This document shows, piece after piece, positions 5,822 to 53,072 of a stretch of 64,000 nt of DNA. Origin of the DNA: Scytolyngbya sp. HA4215-MV1 (lineage in GTDB: Bacteria; Cyanobacteriota; Cyanobacteriia; Leptolyngbyales; Leptolyngbyaceae); the NCBI GenBank assembly GCA_019359045.1, contig JAHHIA010000001.1, positions 124,001 to 188,000 of the forward strand. Direction: 5' to 3'. The notes beneath the pieces are model-generated. The model saw nothing but the letters and a program-made list of their open reading frames with translations. It ran no database searches and was not told the DNA's origin. The first letter of the stretch is position 1. Each line of letters starts with the position of its first letter. A program made the translations under genes and the position numbers.

Positions 5822-7987
5822 TCAAAGATCTCCAGCCCAAAATACCTTTTCCAGATCTACCTTTTGCGAGACATAAGTAAAGGGAAGTTTAACAACAAAG
5901 GTAGTACCAGTACCGAGCTGGCTATGCAGACTAATACTCCCGCCCATTAATTCCACACATTGTTTAACGATCGACAAGCCCAAACCATTGCCAGGAATTG
6001 TGTCTACATTGGCAGCCCGATGAAAAGATTCAAAAACGTGAGGGAGATCAGGAGGAGGAATCCCAATTCCTTGATCTTTAACCTGCAAAATAATTTCGTT
6101 GTCCGGATTCAACAAGTCAATCTCAATATTTGTATGGGGATGGGAATATTTAATCGCGTTCGATAACAAATTCATGAAAATTTGACGAAATAATTTTGAA
6201 TCGAGATAGGTTAGTCGAGAGGGGAATTGGCTAACAAATTCGATCCGGTGCTGATTGCCCAATCCTATCTGCATTTCATAAGTCAGATTGCGACAAAAAT
6301 ATTCAAGATCGACTTCGATCGGTTCAACTTGCACCCGTCCAGCTTCGGCTGTTCCAAATAACAAAACGTCTTCTAGTAGCCTATTAATATGGTCCACACA
6401 TGATTGGATCAGATGCAACTGTTCTAAGCGTTCGTCTTCTGAGAGTTTATGGCTATAGTATTCTAATAGTTCTGAGGCGGAGAGGATTGTACTCAATGGA
6501 GTACGAAATTCGTGAGAGGTGTTTGCAATAAAGCGAGACTTCAATCCACTGAGTTCTTTTTCCCTTTGTAGTGTTTTTAAGAGTTTTGCTTCTAATTGCT
6601 TACGCTCAGTGATATCGCGCTGAATGGCAATCCAGTGAGTATACCAACCTGAATCGTCTGCAACGGGTACAATGCTCAACTCTACCCAAAACTCCGTGCC
6701 ATCTTTGCGGTAGTTGATTAATTCAACCAAGACAGGTTGCCAAGTCTGAAGGGCAGAGCGAATCTTTTGTCGAGCTTCTGGCGCAGTTTTTTCACCCTGA
6801 AGAATTCGAGGAGAAAACCTTAATACTTCCTGGGCAGTATAGCCCGTCATTTGAGTAAACGCTTCGTTGACATAGAGAATGCGGGGACCAGGTTCTTCAA
6901 TGGGTTCTGCTTCAGTAATGATGACTGCATCGTTGGCATGGACAACCACAGATTCTAGTAGACGGATGCGTTGCTCAGAACGCTTCCGTGCGTTTTCAAG
7001 TTGTTGGCGATCCTCTATTTCGCGACGGATCGCTTGTTGGCGTTCAATCACAGAGCCTAAGATTCGGCAAGCAACGATCGCCATTTCATACTGATAAGAG
7101 GGTTGCCAATCATTTTGAGTTGGGAAGACCAACATCAATACGCCAATTGTGACTGAATGGGCACCTGAAATTGGATAAATATTAATTTTCCTACCGCCTA
7201 AGCAAGAGAGTGTTGAAATTGCTTGGGGATGATTCACATAATCATCAATAAATAAGGGTTCATCTGTATCGACAACTTGCCAAAATGTACCCTGTCCATC
7301 AGGAATACTACTATCTAAAAAAAATCGAAGATCTTGGATTTCCGATTCGGTATGAGTGCTTAGAAATTGTTCCGAAATTTTATTAGCGACCGGATCAGCT
7401 TGGCGATGAGGAGCTTTACCGTTAATAAGTTTGATGTAACCGAATAGGGCATCGAGTTCTTCAACTAAATAACTCAAAATCAGCTGACTGATTTCAAGCA
7501 TGTGGTCAGAACTTTGAATTTGTGCCGTTAGATCGAGTAAAAACTTGAGTCCTTTTTTCTGAGCTTGTGTTGTTTGTAGATTATCCGGAAGCAATGATGG
7601 GGGCAAATATTCTGATGGATGAATGACGAGAAGATAGCCACCATTAGCTCTGGAAGTAGCTTTAATGTTTAGCTGGATATCATTAGTTTGCAATAAGTGA
7701 AAAACTGAGGAAGTAGTGGTTCGTTGATTAATAAATTGTTGAAATTGCTGAGTTTGCTCTTGATGCCAATACCCTTTTATTAAAATGCTCGCGAAGATTT
7801 CATGACAGGTTGGTTGCTGATGCAACCAATCTGTAGACAATTGCCACAGCTGCACAAATCTAGAATTAAATCGCTCAAGCCGATCGTCTTGAGCAAACAA
7901 GGCGATCGCAACATCCATTTGTTCAAGTAGGAGATTTATATCTGAATGATCTTCTTGAGAATCAGCTTTAGCCAGTTCTGAATTCAT
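5822..7987 (-). CDS. PAS/GAF-domain hybrid sensor histidine kinase
   Basis: 721 residues from ATG 7987, preferred over an in-frame TTG at 8053 because MNSELAKADSQEDHSD looks like a natural start. The order is an N-terminal PAS-like region (LEQMDVAIALFAQDDRLERFN), a GAF-like region (about 150-320), a PAS/PAC module (about 345-470, with NYRKDGTEFWVELSIVPV and DITERKQLE), the HisKA dimerisation helix with FIANTSHEFRTPLS (phospho-accepting His), and the HATPase domain with N box (NLLSNAIKYS), G1 (DQGIGIP) and G2 (GNGLGLSIVK). No transmembrane helix is visible, so it is cytoplasmic. No receiver or partner response regulator is adjacent. The signal is unknown. Confidence 0.9.
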   Translation of the reverse strand: MNSELAKADSQEDHSDINLLLEQMDVAIALFAQDDRLERFNSRFVQLWQLSTDWLHQQPTCHEIFASILIKGYWHQEQTQQFQQFINQRTTTSSVFHLLQTNDIQLNIKATSRANGGYLLVIHPSEYLPPSLLPDNLQTTQAQKKGLKFLLDLTAQIQSSDHMLEISQLILSYLVEELDALFGYIKLINGKAPHRQADPVANKISEQFLSTHTESEIQDLRFFLDSSIPDGQGTFWQVVDTDEPLFIDDYVNHPQAISTLSCLGGRKINIYPISGAHSVTIGVLMLVFPTQNDWQPSYQYEMAIVACRILGSVIERQQAIRREIEDRQQLENARKRSEQRIRLLESVVVHANDAVIITEAEPIEEPGPRILYVNEAFTQMTGYTAQEVLRFSPRILQGEKTAPEARQKIRSALQTWQPVLVELINYRKDGTEFWVELSIVPVADDSGWYTHWIAIQRDITERKQLEAKLLKTLQREKELSGLKSRFIANTSHEFRTPLSTILSASELLEYYSHKLSEDERLEQLHLIQSCVDHINRLLEDVLLFGTAEAGRVQVEPIEVDLEYFCRNLTYEMQIGLGNQHRIEFVSQFPSRLTYLDSKLFRQIFMNLLSNAIKYSHPHTNIEIDLLNPDNEIILQVKDQGIGIPPPDLPHVFESFHRAANVDTIPGNGLGLSIVKQCVELMGGSISLHSQLGTGTTFVVKLPFTYVSQKVDLEKVFWAGDL

Positions 7988-40031: not shown

Positions 40032-40916
40032 CTAATGCACTTTTTTGCGATATCCACCCGTTCTCTGTTCCAAAACCTCTTTCACCACCAACGTCACGAC
40101 TGCTAGTAAAGCCAACAATACTGCTGCAGAGTACGCCGCTTCTGTTTCATACCCCTTATAGGCTTCTTCGACATAAAGGGGTAAGCTCTGTGTTTTTCCT
40201 GCAATGTTGCCAGAGACCACAGAAACGGCACCAAACTCACCCATTGCCCGAGCATTGGTTAGCAAGATGCCATAGAGCAACCCCCAACGAATGTTGGGTA
40301 CGGTCACGCGCCAAAACGTTTGCCAGGGATTAGCACCCAGCGTATAAGCGGCTTCTTCCTGATCCAGGCCTTCTTCTTCCAGAACTGGAATCACTTCACG
40401 GGCAACAAAGGGCATACTGACAAAAATAGTTGCTAACAACATGGCTGGAAAAGCAAACACGATGTTGATGTTATGTGCTTGTAGCCATCCACCAAACCAA
40501 CCATTTCGTCCATAGAGCAACACAATCATCAAACCTGCAACCACAGGTGAGATGGCAAAGGGCAAGTCAATAATACTCAGCAACAGAGTGCGTCCACGAA
40601 ACCGTTTGCGAGCGAGTGCCCAGGCTGTTGCCAATCCAAAGATGGTGTTGAGCGGAACTGCGATCGCAGCCAGCGCCAACGTCATCTGAATTGCGTGCAA
40701 AAAGTTTGGTTCTTTGAGGTTCTTGAGAAAAGGTCCTATTCCTTTATGAAATGCCTGATAGAAGACATTGATTGCGGGAATGTAAAGCACAAATCCCAAA
40801 AAAAGAATGGCAACTCCGATTAAGACCGCAGGAACCCAGCTCTTTGTCCTGGCATCTCCGGGTTGGGGTATCGGACCAGACGGGGGCAACGAAGCATCAA
40901 TAACCGAGTTAGTCAT
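40032..40916 (-). CDS. cysW: Sulfate ABC transporter permease CysW
   Basis: 294 residues from ATG 40916. Six membrane helices and the EAA loop [33 protein letters not shown]. It overlaps the end of cysT by 8 bases (start within the cysT stop region), typical of translational coupling. With CysT it forms the membrane channel of the sulfate/thiosulfate importer; the ATPase gene (cysA) is not in the window. Confidence 0.95.
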
Positions 40917-41787
40917 ATCGTTTCCCCCAAGCTTGAATAAAGTTAATCACCAGCAACATCAAGAGCGAAAGAATCAACAGCACCATGCCAATCACGGTGG
41001 CACCAGCATAGTCATACTGCTCCAGTCGCTGAAAGATCAAAATGGGGGCAATCAGATCTTTAAAGGGAGTGTTGGAGGAGACGATAACAGTAGATCCATA
41101 CTCACCCACTGCCCGTGAAAACCCTAATGCAACCCCCGTTAAAATAGCAGGGAACAGCGGTGGTAGAAGGACGCGCCAGAAGGTTTCCAGTGCAGAGGCG
41201 CCTAAAGACCAAGCAGCTTCTTCTGTTTCCCTTTCCATTTGCATTAAAACGGGTTGCACCGTCCGCACGACAAAAGGAAGCGAAATAAACATCATGGCAA
41301 TGCCAACGCCCAGACGAGTAAAAGCAATTTTGATGCCGAATGGAGCAAACAATGAACCAATCCATCCATTCTCACTGTAAACCGTTGCCAGGGTTAAACC
41401 TGCCACCGCGGTTGGTAACGCAAACGGTAAATCGATCGACGCATCAATAAACCGCTTGAGCGGAAAGTCGTATCGGACTAAAACCCAAGCAACCAACACT
41501 CCAAATACCCCATCAATCAACGCTGCGATCAAAGATGTGGTAAAGGTAACATCATAGGTTGACAACGCAATAGGGCTGGTTGCAATCCGCCAAAACTCTG
41601 CCAAACCAATACCGCTTGCTTTGGTCAACATTGCTGCGGTTGGCAAAAACAGCATCACCGCTAGATAGCCCAGCATAATTCGCCAGGTCCACGGCATATG
41701 AATCAAAGAATGCAGAAATACTTGCCAAGGCGAATCGCCTGGAGAACGAGAAATCTGTTGAGAAGAAGCAGCCATTGAGCCATTCAT
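40909..41787 (-). CDS. cysT: Sulfate ABC transporter permease CysT
   Basis: 292 residues from ATG 41787. Membrane helices and the EAA motif [26 protein letters not shown] (starting ERETEEAAW) identify it as the CysT/CysU permease. It is the second gene after sbpA, separated by 523 bases containing repeats, and overlaps cysW by 8 bases. Confidence 0.95.
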
Positions 41788-42310: not shown

Positions 42311-43459
42311 CTAGGATTTACCGAGTTGAGCGCGGATCTTATCAAAGGTTCCGTCATCATCAAAGGTCTTCTGAGCTTCCTTCCAGCCACCGTATTCGTC
42401 AATCTTGCCAAGTTGTTTTACGGGAGGAAACTGAGCAATAAACTCTTTCTCTTGACCCAAATCTCCCAACGGACGGAAGCCCACTTTGGCAAATTCCCGC
42501 TGTGCCTCTGGCGTAAACAGGTATTTCACGAATCCTTCAGCAACTTCCCGTGTACCGTGCTTGTCCACGTTCTTGTCCACCACAGCAGTTGGGGTATCAA
42601 TCGAAATGTTAATCTCGGGCACAACATAGTCGAGCTTTTCGCCTTTTTGCTTTGCCAGGATAACCTCGTTTTCGTAGTTCACCAGAGCATCTCCCTGTCC
42701 CTGCTTCGCAAAAGCATCGGTCGATTCCCGCGCATCCTTTGCTAAGACCGCAACATTTTTGTATGCCTTGGTGACAAAATCTAGCGCTTTCGCGTCATCC
42801 AGCCCCGTTTTCTTGGCATAATTCCACAGGGCAAAATAGTTCCAACGAGCACCCCCAGAAGTTTTGGGATCGGCTGTCACCCATTTGACACCCTCTTTGG
42901 TCAGGTCTGCAAAGGTTTTGATGTTTTTTGGGTTACCTTCTCGTGTAATGATCGCCGCAACTGTTTCGCCTACAATGCCACTGTTGGGAACTCGCTGCGT
43001 CCAGTTCTCATTCACAAATCCAGCTTTCACCAGTTTGTTGACATCGGCTCCGATCGCCAGGTGTACAACATCAGCTTCCAGCCCATCAATCACAGCTCGT
43101 GTTTGGGAACCAGAGCCTCCATAGCTCTGCTTGAAAGTCACATTTTGTCCATGCTCCGTCTTCCACTGTGCAGCAAATTTGGGGATGATGGCATCATGTG
43201 CGGCTTTAGGCACGGCATAGCCTACCAGGGTCAACTCCACATCCTGCTTTTGTGCTGCGGCAGGACTGGCTTCTCCTCCAGCAGGACTTGCATCCGTCGA
43301 AGCTGTATTATTGCCAGAACAAGCGGCAACTGCAACGCTCAGTACAGCTCCAACCAGAAACAGTGAAATAAAGCCTTTCAGTGAATTTAGCCTGAGTCGA
43401 TATACCAAGGATGCGGCGAAGCATTCCCATCGGCTCAGGAGCGAATGCCATCGATTCAT
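42311..43459 (-). CDS. sbpA: Periplasmic sulfate-binding lipoprotein
   Basis: 382 residues from ATG 43459, with AAAGGAG nine bases upstream. A signal with lipobox AVAAC gives a lipid-anchored protein. The mature part contains ELTLVGYAVPKAAHDAIIPKF, SYGGSGSQTRAVIDGLEADVV and WNYFALWNYA, the ProS/sulfate-binding family signatures. After the lipobox cysteine the protein has no methionine and no other cysteine over about 335 residues, which is unusual and fits a protein made in quantity when sulfur is short. The palindromic site ACGGTA-N12-TACCGT lies just upstream of its ribosome binding site. Confidence 0.94.
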   Translation of the reverse strand: MNRWHSLLSRWECFAASLVYRLRLNSLKGFISLFLVGAVLSVAVAACSGNNTASTDASPAGGEASPAAAQKQDVELTLVGYAVPKAAHDAIIPKFAAQWKTEHGQNVTFKQSYGGSGSQTRAVIDGLEADVVHLAIGADVNKLVKAGFVNENWTQRVPNSGIVGETVAAIITREGNPKNIKTFADLTKEGVKWVTADPKTSGGARWNYFALWNYAKKTGLDDAKALDFVTKAYKNVAVLAKDARESTDAFAKQGQGDALVNYENEVILAKQKGEKLDYVVPEINISIDTPTAVVDKNVDKHGTREVAEGFVKYLFTPEAQREFAKVGFRPLGDLGQEKEFIAQFPPVKQLGKIDEYGGWKEAQKTFDDDGTFDKIRAQLGKS

Positions 43460-43482
43460 ATCATGCTCTCCTTTAACAAACT

Positions 43483-43506
43483 ACGGTAATACACTAGGAA
43501 TACCGT
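43483..43506 (-). promoter_or_regulatory. Operator-like palindrome upstream of sbpA
   Basis: ACGGTA (43483-43488) and TACCGT (43501-43506) are perfect 6-bp arms with a 12-base spacer. It ends nine bases before the AAAGGAG ribosome binding site of sbpA and is followed upstream by TTTTATATCATGAAG. The same arrangement occurs at 43717-43740. It is a good candidate for the binding site of a sulfur regulator (a CysR- or LysR-type protein in other cyanobacteria), which is inference. Confidence 0.6.
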
Positions 43507-43553
43507 TTTATATCATGAAGCTGATGGTACAGTGGGGTGAGGTAAAAAGCAAG

Positions 43554-43593: not shown

Positions 43594-43716
43594 AGATGAG
43601 CAAATTTTAGGAGAAAAATGAATGGAACTTACCCAATTTGGGTGAGTTGGGTCAACGATCTTCCAGCGCGCCTTCAATCAGTCACTGCACTATGATGACT
43701 CCTTTAATCTGAATTT
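43594..43716 (-). other. Short orphan transcription unit under the duplicated operator
   Basis: Minus-strand stretch bounded by the operator copy (43717-43740) and the terminator at 43554-43593. A ribosome binding site AAAGGAG lies at 43699-43705, as before sbpA, but the nearest start codon (GTG) is followed by CAG TGA, so only a two-codon frame follows. A TTG further on opens a frame reading LKARWKIVDPTHPNWV. It may be a gene remnant, a leader RNA or a small RNA. Confidence 0.35.
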
Positions 43717-43740
43717 ACGGTTAATCGATAGGAATACCGT
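43717..43740 (-). promoter_or_regulatory. Second copy of the sbpA-type operator
   Basis: ACGGTT-N12-TACCGT at 43717-43740, the same 24-base length as the site at 43483-43506 and sharing AGGAATACCGT with it. The flank towards higher coordinates (GTTATACATGAAGTGATGATACAG) is closely similar to that of the first copy (TTTATATCATGAAGCTGATGGTACAG), so the whole promoter region appears duplicated. Confidence 0.55.
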
Positions 43741-44017
43741 GTTATACATGAAGTGATGATACAGGCAGGCCGTGGAAAAAGCAACTCGTCGTCAGTAAGC
43801 GCCTAAATACCCTTGCCACCTGCTATGTGCGCAAGGTCGCACCAATGAGCAACCTGTAAAGATCAGCTAGAACTGATTTGGAGAGGGAGATCGCCGTTGT
43901 GATGTTGTCAATGGAAAATGCCAGATTCAGTTAAAGCAAGCACATACCGTTCTGAAGCGTTGAGCTTCCATGAAGCGAACTCCGACTCATCTGAGCATTC
44001 GGAGATCTCGAGGGGGA

Positions 44018-48175: not shown

Positions 48176-48697
48176 ATGGTGTTAGATGCTTTTGCGAAGG
48201 TTGTCTATCAAGCGGATACTCGAGGAGAGTACCTCAGCAATTCTCAAGTAGACGCGCTGATTGCCCTCGTCAAAGATGGCAACAAGCGAGTAGATATCGT
48301 CAACCGGATTAGTAGCAATGCTTCTACCATTGTGACGAGTGCAGCCCGTGATCTGTTTGCTGAGCAACCTCAGTTGATCGCACCCGGCGGAAATGCTTAT
48401 ACCAACCGTCGTGCAGCTGCTTGCTTGCGGGATCTGGAAATTATTCTGCGCTATGTCACCTATGCCATTTTTACAGGAGATTCCAGCATTCTGGAGGATC
48501 GGGCACTGAATGGACTACGCGAAACCTATCTAGCACTGGGTACACCCGGAACTTCCGTCGCTGTTGGTATTCAAAAGTTGAAGCAAGCCTCGTTGGCGAT
48601 CGCGAGCGATCCCAACGGCATCACCAAAGGCGATTGTAGTTCTTTGCTTTCAGAAGTTGCGGGCTACTTCGATCGTGCAGCTGCTGCGGTTGGCTAA
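48176..48697 (+). CDS. cpcB: Phycocyanin beta subunit, sulfur-poor (phycocyanin-3 type)
   Basis: 173 residues from ATG 48176, AGGAG upstream. Matches CpcB along its length ([74 protein letters not shown]). Bilin-binding cysteines C83 and C154 are kept. All other sulfur is gone: no methionine after the initiator, the usual CpcB methionines are L, A or I, and the usual non-bilin Cys near 109 is A110. This is how phycocyanin-3 of Calothrix PCC 7601, made during sulfur starvation, differs from the normal one. The cysK and sulfate permease genes nearby fit. It is a light-harvesting rod protein. Confidence 0.9.
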
Positions 48698-48753
48698 TCA
48701 ATTTCCCGTCATAATCTCAACGTCGTAAACCTGAATTAGGAGATATCCCATCC

Positions 48754-49245
48754 ATGAGTAAAACACCCTTAACCGAAGCCGTTGCTGCTGCTGATTCCCA
48801 AGGTCGCTTTTTGGGCAGCACCGAATACCAGGTTGCTTTTGGACGGTTTCGGCAAGCCGCTAACACGCTTGAAGCCGTTAAGGTTTTATCTAGTAAAGCA
48901 CAAAGCTTAGCGGAAGGGGCTGCAAACGCGGTCTATCAAAAGTTTCCTTACACGACCCAACTCCAGGGACCCAACTATGCTCATGATGCACGGGGTAAGT
49001 CCAAATGTGTGCGTGACATTGGCTACTATTTGCGGATCATTACCTATGCGCTAGTGGTGGGTGGCACAGGTCCCATCGATGATTACCTGATCGGTGGTTT
49101 ATCGGAAATTAATCGTTCCTTTGAGCTATCACCTAGCTGGTATATCGAAGCGCTGAAGCACATCAAGGCAAATCATGGCTTGTCCGGTGATCCAGCGGTT
49201 GAGGTCAATTCCTACATTGACTATGTCGTCAATGCTTTGAGCTAG
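48754..49245 (+). CDS. cpcA: Phycocyanin alpha subunit, sulfur-poor (phycocyanin-3 type)
   Basis: 163 residues from ATG 48754, AGGAGA about 12 bases upstream. It matches CpcA ([77 protein letters not shown]). C85 is the single bilin attachment site and the only cysteine; there is no methionine after the initiator. The usual ITYCLV cysteine is alanine (ITYALV), and common methionines are replaced by L, I or V. It starts 56 bases after cpcB and is presumably co-transcribed. Confidence 0.9.
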
Positions 49246-49425
49246 CCAAAGGCTTGCACAATCAAGAGGTTGCAAATGCGTTAAGCCAATTGCGTAGCCA
49301 ATAGAGGAAGTAATTTTCCATTCCAGCTGGCAGCAATGACTGGAGCGATGGAAATAAATTTGCTTCTGTTGACTATGCAATTGGTTTTTCTAAATCTGGC
49401 AGAAGGTGGCTAAGGCAATATCAGT

Positions 49426-49735
49426 ATGGCAATTTTAGGAGAAGCAAGTCGTTTAGACATTCATCATTCCTATATTGATTCTCTGGAATATCAACAACGC
49501 TTCGGCGAAGCCATCGTGCCCTATTATCAGGATTTTTAAACCCCCATCGTGCGTTGCCCGATCGGCTTTCCTCATTTCTTTCAGCTCTATCGCGGCTATG
49601 CCAATAGCGATCGTGCCCAAAAGCAAATCACAGGTCATCTCACTGGAATCTAGCCAAAAGTCTGACATCGCCCGTTTATCCTCCTGCGGCTGGATCCTTG
49701 AAGACCACGAACAATCCAACCGCAAGGCGCTGACT
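49426..49735 (+). pseudogene. Remnant of a phycobilisome rod-linker gene
   Basis: Reading from ATG 49426 gives YIDSLEYQQRFGEAIVPYYQDF, then an in-frame TAA (49537-49539), then [21 protein letters not shown] and a TAG at 49651. These match the linker downstream ([38 protein letters not shown]). A shifted frame continues SPVYPPAAGS, similar to the next linker region. The N-terminal part of the domain is missing. It lies between cpcA and the intact linker, the position of cpcH3 in the known operon, so this may be a decayed second linker. Alternatively, a truncated duplicate. Confidence 0.8.
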
Positions 49736-49797
49736 CTTCCTCTGGGAGTCCAAAAAATTCTCAACTGACATTTCAAATCATCACGGAGATTTTTTTA

Positions 49798-50664
49798 ATG
49801 GCTATTACAACCGCAGCCTCTCGACTTGGTACCTCTGCTTTTAGTAATGCAGCCCCCTTAGAACTGCGTGCCAAAGCCAGTGCCGCAGAGATAGCTAGAG
49901 TAATTGCCGCTGTTTACCGCCAGGTATTAGGCAACGACTATCTGCTGCAAGCCGAACGATTGCTCGGAGCAGAATCATTGCTAGCAAGTGGCACAATTAC
50001 AGTTCAGGAATTTGTGCGGCAAGTTGCTAAGTCGGAACTTTACAAGACCAAATTTTTCTACAATAATTTTCAGACCCGCACCATTGAGTTGAACTATAAG
50101 CACCTCCTCGGTCGTGCCCCTTATGATGAATCGGAGGTGACTGAGCATTTGGATCGGTATCAAAACCAAGGATATGAGGCCGATATCGATTCTTATATTG
50201 ACTCAACCGAATACGAGCAAAATTTTGGTGATAATGTTGTGCCTTATTACCGCAGTTTTGTGACTCAACCTGGGCACCAAACCGTGGGTTTTACCCGGAT
50301 CTTCCAACTCTATCGGGGATATGCCACTAGCGATCGCGCCCAAATTGCTGGAACTTCTTCTCGTTTGGCGGGTGAATTGGGGAGAAATCGCACATCTGCA
50401 ATTATTCCTCCTGCGACTTCTGGAAATGGCTTTGCCTATCGTCCGTCACTGAAAGGGGTCACCCCTGCTAGTACTTTTGGTGGCTCAAAAGCTTATGGTG
50501 AAAGGCAACTCTACCGAATTGAAACTGCAGGCATTTCCCGACCCGGCTATCCCAGAGTGCGGCGAGTAAATCAGGCGGTGATTGTTCCCTATGAAGAATT
50601 GTCCAACCATTTGCGACGAATCCAGCGCCAAGGCGGCAAAATTGCCAGCATTACCCCACTTTAA
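49798..50664 (+). CDS. Phycobilisome rod linker (CpcC/CpcH/CpcI type), sulfur-free
   Basis: 288 residues from ATG 49798, CGGAG upstream. The N-terminal PBS-linker domain (about 20-180: [46 protein letters not shown]) and the C-terminal CpcD-like domain (about 235-288: [40 protein letters not shown]) identify it. It contains no cysteine and no methionine beyond the start. It joins phycocyanin hexamers into rods. It is the third intact gene of the sulfur-poor operon; no cpcD gene is present. Confidence 0.9.
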
Positions 50665-50930: not shown

Positions 50931-51923
50931 TTAACGAATTGCCGATAGTTCTCGATTTGCACCATCTAAATTGGCTACTTCGACCTCTGGCAAATCTTGG
51001 AATAGCGGTGTGCTGAGGTAACGTTCACCATAGCTAGGCTGGATAAAGACTACCAACTTTCCAGCGTTCTCTGGGCGTTTTGCCACCTGGATCGCGGCTG
51101 CCAGCGCTGCCCCAGAAGAGATCCCCGATAACACTCCTTCTTCGCGTGCTAAACGGCGACTGTAAGCGATCGCGTTTTCACTACTAATTTGAATCACTTC
51201 ATCAATCAATTCCCGCTTCAAGACTGTTGGGATGAACCCTGCTCCAATCCCTTGAATCTTATGCGGTCCTGGTTGCCCACCCGAAAGCACATGGCTTTCT
51301 TCTGGCTCAACTGCGATCGCTTGAAAGCTTGGCTTGCGTTGCTTGAGTATCTCTGCTACACCTGTAATGGTCCCGCCCGTGCCCACACCTGAAATCAGGA
51401 TATCAATCTTGCCATCTGTATCTTCCCAAAGTTCTTCGGCAGTGGTTTCACGATGAATTCTAGGATTGGCGGGATTCGCAAACTGTTGCGGTAAGAAGGC
51501 ATGGGGAATTTGCTGAGCAATCTCCTCTGCCCGTGCCACGGCTCCCTTCATGCCTTGAGCACCTGGAGTCAGTTCCAATTGAGCACCATAGGCTTTCAGC
51601 ATTGCCCGCCGTTCCAGACTCATGGTATCAGGCATCGTTAAAATCAATTGATAGCCTCTGGCAGCGGCAACCATTGCCAGAGCAATTCCTGTATTGCCGG
51701 AAGTCGGCTCCACCAACACTGTTTTACCAGGTTGAATCAATCCGGCTTCTTCAGCTGCGCGAACCATACTGATACCGATTCGATCTTTAACCGATGCTGC
51801 TGGGTTAAATCCCTCCAACTTGGCGACAACTTCAGCCACACACCCTTCTGCCTGAGGAATGTGACCCAGCCGCACAAGAGGGGTTTTACCAATTAATTCA
51901 GTAATGTCGTTTGCAATTCGCAT
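50931..51923 (-). CDS. cysK: Cysteine synthase A (O-acetylserine sulfhydrylase)
   Basis: 330 residues from ATG 51923. The PLP-binding lysine is in [20 protein letters not shown], the [12 protein letters not shown] loop binds substrate, and [16 protein letters not shown] binds the phosphate. It makes cysteine from O-acetylserine and sulfide. Upstream, ACTACGGTAAT at 52010-52020 is identical to an 11-base part of the sbpA control region. It is convergent with the phycocyanin operon across MITE copy A. Confidence 0.95.
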
Positions 51924-52009: not shown

Positions 52010-52020
52010 ACTACGGTAAT
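52010..52020 (-). promoter_or_regulatory. cysK upstream element shared with sbpA
   Basis: ACTACGGTAAT is found here and, identically, at 43480-43490 upstream of sbpA, in the same orientation relative to the gene. It is a half of the palindrome at sbpA; here the second half is degenerate. It lies about 87 bases upstream of the cysK start. Common regulation by sulfur supply is inferred. Confidence 0.45.
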
Positions 52021-52172
52021 CCGATGGATTTTAAGGATTTAATTTAATATTCAAAAAGAGAGATCAGTTTAATCTCTGACTCTGCGATCGCTGAGATGCA
52101 ACATCGATAAAACCTATTTTCGAGGTGTTTTGAGGGTTTGAAGACCCACAAATCTTCAACAATCTAATGTCG

Positions 52173-52526
52173 CTAGAGCATCTCCTCAGAAGGATGAATG
52201 GTACTGATTTTCTGCGATCGTAGTAAACATTCGCTATCCCAACGCATGACCCAATCCTGCTGTTTGCAGCGTAAGCAAATCAGCGTTTTGCCATGTTGAT
52301 GATGCGTCAGCTTTGCCATTTCTACCAACCGTTTGTAGAGTTCTATCGGCACACCGTCTACTTCATGACAAGTTACAAGCAATGCATTGCCAGATGGAAA
52401 TCTCAGCAAGCTCACGCTGCATCGATCCAACACATCCCAGTCTGGTTCCGCCACACTATCAATCAAATTGCGGGTGAGGATCAGATCCAACATTAACTCT
52501 TTTTCATCCATGAGGTTATCCATCAT
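52173..52526 (-). CDS. Hypothetical protein (117 aa)
   Basis: ATG at 52526 or 52523. Acidic N-terminus (MDEKELMLDLILTRNLIDSVAEPDWDV), then alternating strands (SVSLLRFPSGNALLVTCHEVDGVP) and a basic CxxC (LICLRCKQQDWVMRW), which could bind metal. I do not recognise it. Confidence 0.55.
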   Translation of the reverse strand: MMDNLMDEKELMLDLILTRNLIDSVAEPDWDVLDRCSVSLLRFPSGNALLVTCHEVDGVPIELYKRLVEMAKLTHHQHGKTLICLRCKQQDWVMRWDSECLLRSQKISTIHPSEEML

Positions 52527-53072
52527 CCCAACTTTCCATTCCAGCTAAATAGGTAGGCGTAATGAGTTGTAAGAAGGGGGGTGAGGCGTTGCCCCGGCAG
52601 GGGGGTTGCCCCCCTCCACCCCCAAAATCCATCTTCAATTTAATTGCACCCAGCTACTTAAAAGACCTTGCGACTTCCCGATAGGAACTGTCCTATCGAC
52701 TCTCTGCTACTTGAGCAATACTCCGCCTCTCTTTCTACTCCACTCGATCGATAGCGAATCTACAATAAATCGACCGATATACCGTGCTTATTGCTCAGAC
52801 TATGCCACATCTGCTTCAGGAATGCGAGCAATAGCGGATACAAAATTTACTTAAAAGAGTGGATTTGGGAAGATATAGCGGTAGTTACGATCATTAGGAC
52901 GTTTTAAAGGCTGGAAGCTGCCAGGGGCTTAAGCCCCTTGTCCCAACCTAAATGACCATGGCTATAGAAAACGACTGGAGACAGTGCTTTTGTGACGACC
53001 AATGCCTGAGCCGTACCATCCAGGGCGTCGCGATGAGAATATTTTCACCCAGTCAATTCACACATGTTGAGT
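52527..53072. other. Intergenic region with inverted copy of repeat family 2
   Basis: About 545 bases. It begins with a dispersed repeat (52547-52664) that is the reverse complement of the block at 47254-47370. TATACCGT near 52778 resembles part of the sbpA operator but there is no gene start nearby. Nothing else is assigned. Confidence 0.5.
52547..52664 (-). repeat. Dispersed repeat, family 2, copy 2 (inverted)
   Basis: Read on the minus strand it runs TAAGTAGCTGGG, AATTAAATTGAAGAT, TTTTGGGGGTGGAGGGGGG, CCTGCCGGGG, CTTCTTACAA, the same order as copy 1 at 47254-47370. With copy 1 it flanks the phycocyanin/cysK segment as inverted repeats about 5.2 kb apart. Confidence 0.6.

Follow-up and report, generated by a model that had tools for sequence, protein, structure and literature searches.

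Does a phycocyanin operon that lies among genes of sulfate uptake and cysteine synthesis serve to save sulfur? The question was raised by three genes of the window, that is, the whole 64-kb stretch of DNA that was analysed (positions 124001-188000 of contig C23, in a genome of 6.62 Mb and 33 contigs; Table 1). The open reading frames of cpcB3, cpcA3 and the rod linker (48176-50664) were all intact. Both subunits matched the Pfam family of phycobilisome alpha and beta subunits and had their bilin cysteines, the columns of which (82, 167 and 272) were invariant over the whole alignment. A sequence-only reading had claimed that CpcB, CpcA and the linker contained no methionine past the initiator and only the three bilin-binding cysteines, and the residue positions bore this out. 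In CpcB, methionine was present at M1 only and cysteine at the bilin sites C83 and C154 only, with alanine at position 110, where ordinary CpcB has cysteine. In CpcA, methionine was present at M1 only and the sole cysteine was C85, again a bilin site; the linker had M1 as its sole methionine and no cysteine. Window cpcB3 differed from its relatives by pN 0.09 and pS 0.69-0.82 (dN/dS roughly 0.04-0.05), and purifying selection on the gene is strong. The window operon yielded no cpcD, no excess of promoters or terminators was found upstream of cpcB3, and the 64-kb window contained no Rfam families but one tRNA.

Table 1. Positions of the phycocyanin operon, the sulfur genes and the operator candidates in the window, and of one purged operon in another genome.
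Feature	Position	Strand	Evidence or remarks
cpcB3, phycocyanin beta subunit, 173 aa	48176..48697	+	PF00502, 173.9 bits
cpcA3, phycocyanin alpha subunit, 163 aa	48754..49245	+	PF00502, 159.2 bits
Pseudogene remnant, first rod linker (cpcH-type)	49465..49730	+	tblastn; queries were intact first linkers from related operons
Rod linker, CpcC/CpcI type, 288 aa	49798..50664	+	PF00427 + PF01383 (PBS_linker_poly + CpcD domain)
sbpA, sulfate ABC transporter substrate-binding protein	42311..43459	-	TIGR00971, 260.8 bits (cut-off 155.5)
cysT, sulfate ABC transporter permease	40909..41787	-	TIGR02139, 398.9 bits
cysW, sulfate ABC transporter permease	40032..40916	-	TIGR02140, 389.5 bits
cysK, cysteine synthase A, converging on cpc operon	50931..51923	-	TIGR01139, 467.8 bits
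Operator candidate	43482..43507		About 22 bp upstream of sbpA; score 21.4
Operator candidate	43716..43741		257 bp upstream of sbpA; score 28.2; also found in the whole-genome scan
Operator candidate	52012..52037		About 90 bp upstream of cysK; score 18.5
Operator candidate	52761..52786		235 bp upstream of a 117-aa ORF (52173-52526, -); score 21.5
Purged main phycocyanin operon (locus L140)	G336:C1:4195800-4211800		

Three further cpcBA operons were found in the same genome (C15:393k, C15:399.8k and C23:402k). Their CpcB contained 6, 6 and 7 internal Met and 3 Cys each, and their CpcA 2, 2 and 3 internal Met and 2 Cys each. The sequence-only reading had depended on the genome having another phycocyanin operon, and had described ordinary CpcA and CpcB as carrying several Met and a non-bilin Cys. 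Both points held for these three operons, and the proposed comparison of Met and Cys counts among paralogs separated sulfur-rich paralogs from a purged window operon. Per alpha-beta pair, initiators left out, there were 3 sulfur atoms in the window operon versus 13 in ordinary operon o1. The ordinary operons resembled the window operon in fold, bilin cysteines and cpcB-cpcA order (70-80% identity), and differed from it in their Met and Cys content and in the absence of the sulfur operator upstream, unlike the window neighbourhood. The third of them (C23:396000-412000) was located beside a serine acetyltransferase, a heme-oxygenase-like gene and an AraC-type regulator, with a CpcG-type linker on the opposite strand; its CpcB was the most divergent in the genome (70-78% identity to the other three).

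Relatives of CpcB were the best 80 from a scan of species genomes, and purged CpcB was searched for by Ala replacing its third Cys (alignment column 109). This pattern was present in 16/386 genomes of the phylum, 36/390 genomes of the class (in 16 of 155 genera), 12 of the 42 genomes of the own family and 69/206 genomes of one Nostocaceae-like family, counts that take in all purged groups and are wider than the clade of the window. The tree was built from concatenated CpcB and CpcA after deletion of all columns in which at least one row had Met or Cys, which prevented the purge from pulling rows together. A first, quick tree (141 rows) proved insufficient, as the AU run beat its free search, and was replaced by a careful tree of 67 rows. 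The window operon was placed in a clade of 42 sampled operons, designated PC3 (SH-aLRT 99 in the quick tree; UFBoot 100 and SH-aLRT 96 in the 67-row tree). In all 42 operons, CpcB had 0 Met and 2 Cys, and CpcA 0 Met and 1 Cys (initiators not counted). The tree that had been suggested as a check on the subunits set the window within a fully purged clade with the Met and Cys columns masked.

Members of PC3 belonged to Leptolyngbyaceae, Oculatellaceae, Scytonemataceae, Nostocaceae, Hapalosiphonaceae, Microcystaceae and Chroococcidiopsidaceae. The gene order was cpcB-A-H-I-D, and all five genes were purged of Met and Cys, in five genomes of one Nostocaceae genus (loci L203-L208), and many PC3 operons consisted of cpcBA alone, with no linker. 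By parsimony on the careful tree, with the initiator columns excluded, none of the 621 substitutions inside PC3 produced a Met or Cys, whereas in the remainder of the tree 36 of 1010 did (Fisher p = 4.8e-8). This indicates that the purged state was kept by selection and not by passive inheritance. The purged state of PC3 is actively maintained, beyond chance or drift.

The genes of sulfate uptake and cysteine synthesis that had been read beside the window operon were confirmed, SbpA, CysT, CysW and CysK all exceeding their NCBIfam cut-offs (Table 1). Genes of this set, the only one named beforehand, were present within 9.5 kb of 11/42 PC3 operons versus 0/77 other cpc operons, all of them located outside the PC3 loci; related PC3 loci are not independent of one another, and the count at the level of lineages was 9/26, the window included. 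Further recurrent neighbours of PC3 were the SsuA sulfonate-binding protein, the SsuC permease, an NtaA/DmoA-type monooxygenase, a taurine-dioxygenase-like protein, an SfnB-like dehydrogenase, and homoserine acetyltransferase with O-acetylhomoserine sulfhydrylase. Once genes for sulfonate, for taurine and for Met synthesis were added, a wider set picked after the neighbourhoods had been seen, 31/42 PC3 operons had a sulfur-acquisition neighbour. Gene content and order of these neighbourhoods varied by lineage. The linkage with sulfur genes recurs across many lineages and so is no coincidence of the window.

An inverted repeat was noticed in several cpcB3 upstream regions and was refined to a palindrome of 26 bp, TACGGTAAnTCGATCGAnTTACCGTA, with TACGGTA arms and a spacer fixed at 12. 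With a matrix built without the window sites, four matches were found in the window (Table 1); the next unrelated site scored 7.7, and the highest score in ten shuffled versions of the window was 13.7. The 117-aa ORF behind one of them had no NCBIfam match and is possibly a new gene of the sulfur regulon. In the own genome, only four sites had one mismatch or less, and these were located upstream of sbpA (in the window), at a second sulfate-binding protein, in a cysA/TauE-like gap and at a Crp/Fnr-family regulator. The exact pattern TACGGTA-N(6-18)-TACCGTA, with no mismatch, was absent from the own genome, one mismatch being needed. At two mismatches, the palindrome was genome-wide no commoner than its reversed control, and weak sites were therefore not trusted on count alone. 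The site C5:84175-84200 (L252:1501-1526) was 122 bp upstream of the Crp/Fnr-family gene, which, having its own upstream palindrome, is a candidate for an autoregulated sulfur regulator. A homologue of this gene in another genome (G403) had the palindrome 36 bp upstream. Assignment of the gene to NtcA or PtrA was rejected, as it scored below the cut-off for both.

Across loci, 790 kb of PC3 sequence contained 62 palindromic sites and 1.36 Mb of control cpc loci contained one, with a matrix trained on 14 of the PC3 sites. The palindrome was present in the cpcB3 promoter of 8/42 PC3 operons (6 lineages) versus 0/63 ordinary cpc operons. It was absent from the cpcB3 promoter of the window itself (best score -4.3, equal to background), so that control there would be exerted via another element or an unrecognised regulator, or else the link is merely positional. 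In other genomes of the family, the palindrome was located directly upstream of SbpA, CysA, a monooxygenase and the Crp/Fnr-family gene. Sites with one mismatch or less were about four times as numerous as those of the reversed-pattern control in 12 own-family genomes with purged CpcB; in 30 own-family genomes without it they were at control level overall, with some directly before SbpA. A search of the open literature found no published report of the palindrome.

The gap of 552 bp between cpcA and the linker contained a decayed rod-linker pseudogene. In tblastn searches (E down to about 1e-26), the stretch 49465-49644, which is interrupted by an in-frame stop, aligned at 60-70% identity with first linkers from related operons; past a frameshift near 49644 the match changed frame and ran on as far as 49730, and the N-terminal half was missing. 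The decayed linker that had been read from the letters of the window is thus real. In ordinary operon o1 the first rod linker was decayed too (L019, about 6406-7018, two frames with an internal gap), and among these operons of the genome it was intact in operon o3 alone. With one of its two linkers decayed and no cpcD found, the window operon may encode a reduced rod architecture.

Phycocyanin-3 (cpcB3A3H3I3D3) of Calothrix/Fremyella/Tolypothrix PCC 7601 is reportedly the subject of work by Mazel and Marliere in 1989 and by Gutu et al. in 2011. Like the window operon, it is purged of Met and non-bilin Cys, has purged linkers and coexists with sulfur-rich paralogs. Its quoted layout (B-A-H-I-D) matches that of the PC3 members L203-L208, the likeness being one of layout and Met and Cys content. 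The window operon differs from it in the broken first linker, the lack of a cpcD in the operon and the position between sulfate-transport and cysteine-synthase genes. The purged operons of Microcystis, Fischerella muscicola PCC 7414, Leptolyngbyaceae and others belong to the clade of the window and have identical Met and Cys counts, and that of Microcystis is beside cysK and sbpA, as in the window. Unlike the window operon, they are mostly cpcBA alone, and some have the palindrome in the cpcB3 promoter.

Four cpc operons in one genome suggest a division of labour, and the window operon could instead serve acclimation to light colour or intensity, with Met and Cys lost incidentally, by drift or by accident of ancestry. 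Several cyanobacterial phycocyanin paralogs are light-regulated, for example cpc2 of PCC 7601, and some PC3 operons adjoin an ordinary cpc operon with no sulfur gene nearby. Neighbourhoods and operators indicate sulfur, however, and 0/621 substitutions into Met or Cys in PC3 is not drift, so that a light role is improbable. Methionine and cysteine are also the most easily oxidised residues, and their removal could have favoured resistance to oxidation or heat rather than sulfur economy. That explanation is considered very improbable, for it predicts neither the repeated siting among genes for sulfate, for sulfonate, for taurine and for Met synthesis nor an operator common to PC3 operons and sulfur genes.

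The state of the first linker bears on a different question, whether the window operon is decaying and out of use. The stop and frameshift of the cpcH remnant and the lack of cpcD would agree with this, but cpcB, cpcA and the second linker are undamaged, and cpcB has a dN/dS of about 0.05. Many PC3 operons lack linkers altogether, and ordinary operon o1 is also without its first linker. An operon out of use is hardly credible on these observations.

The window operon is, with high probability, a facultative sulfur-saving phycocyanin of the phycocyanin-3 kind. The proposal that it follows the same strategy as phycocyanin-3 gained support from the purge, the sulfur-rich paralogs, the placement in the purged clade and the recurrent linkage with sulfur genes; upkeep of the purge by selection and operator-like sites at sulfur genes were observed as well. 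Under sulfate shortage, cpcB3A3 and the sulfur-free linker would be transcribed along with the genes of sulfate uptake and cysteine synthesis, and ordinary phycocyanin would meanwhile be degraded or its production stopped. New rods would be assembled from subunits with fewer sulfur atoms (3 versus 13 per alpha-beta pair), light harvesting would go on, and the sulfur of old phycobilisomes would be set free. Induction by sulfate limitation here, rod assembly and the physiological saving are what we infer from the genes. In Tolypothrix PCC 7601 at low sulfate, the antenna proteins are depleted in sulfur amino acids (PMC4424289, with reference to Mazel and Marliere and to Gutu et al.). Sulfur starvation increases sulfate transport genes in cyanobacteria (PMC8049743), and in Synechocystis it decreases cpcA and increases cysW and nblA2 (PMC2491639).

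Some Nostocaceae have a main cpcBACDEFG operon that is likewise purged, completely so in loci L052, L061, L077, L140, L147 and L211. These operons (Nostoc sp. T09, FACHB-110, CHAB 5844 and others) had the same counts as the window operon (CpcB 0 Met and 2 Cys; CpcA 0 Met and 1 Cys), and were nested among relatives with 1-5 Met. Union of the Nostocaceae main operons and PC3 in one clade was rejected (AU p = 1e-5). Unlike the window operon, they have a separate origin, are apparently the only phycocyanin and are without the sulfur palindrome. The purged cpcBACDEFG operon was apparently the sole phycocyanin in four genomes (G336, G620, G641 and G731), in which the purge thus appears permanent, with no switchable spare. 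The phycoerythrocyanin subunits of one of them (G336) were likewise Met-free. Union with PC3 was not rejected for group g2 (Nostoc cpcBA-linker-linker-D-E-F, purged; AU p 0.16) or for locus L173 (AU p 0.35), and hence no more than two origins are claimed, despite 8 changes by parsimony on the best tree.

The Calothrix phycocyanin-3 kind was already known, and the window adds another member to it. The spread of PC3, the sulfur islands, the operator and the separate purge of a sole phycocyanin in some Nostocaceae appear to be undescribed. We consider it moderately likely that purged phycocyanin is a widespread and ancient part of a cyanobacterial sulfur regulon, one defined by an undescribed palindromic operator of 26 bp, and that the purge occurred at least twice, once yielding a switchable spare in sulfur-scavenging islands (the kind of the window) and once permanently replacing the sole phycocyanin of some Nostocaceae. 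Elemental sparing through protein sequence has been a textbook example that depends on a single strain. An old, widely kept and selected clade, grouped with genes of sulfur uptake and scavenging and partly under their operator, turns the anecdote into a testable regulon. With the purged sole phycocyanin of some Nostocaceae, nature offers a comparison of facultative with permanent sulfur saving. The clade takes in Microcystis, a common bloom former, and a sulfur-free antenna protein is a ready marker for sulfate limitation in lakes.
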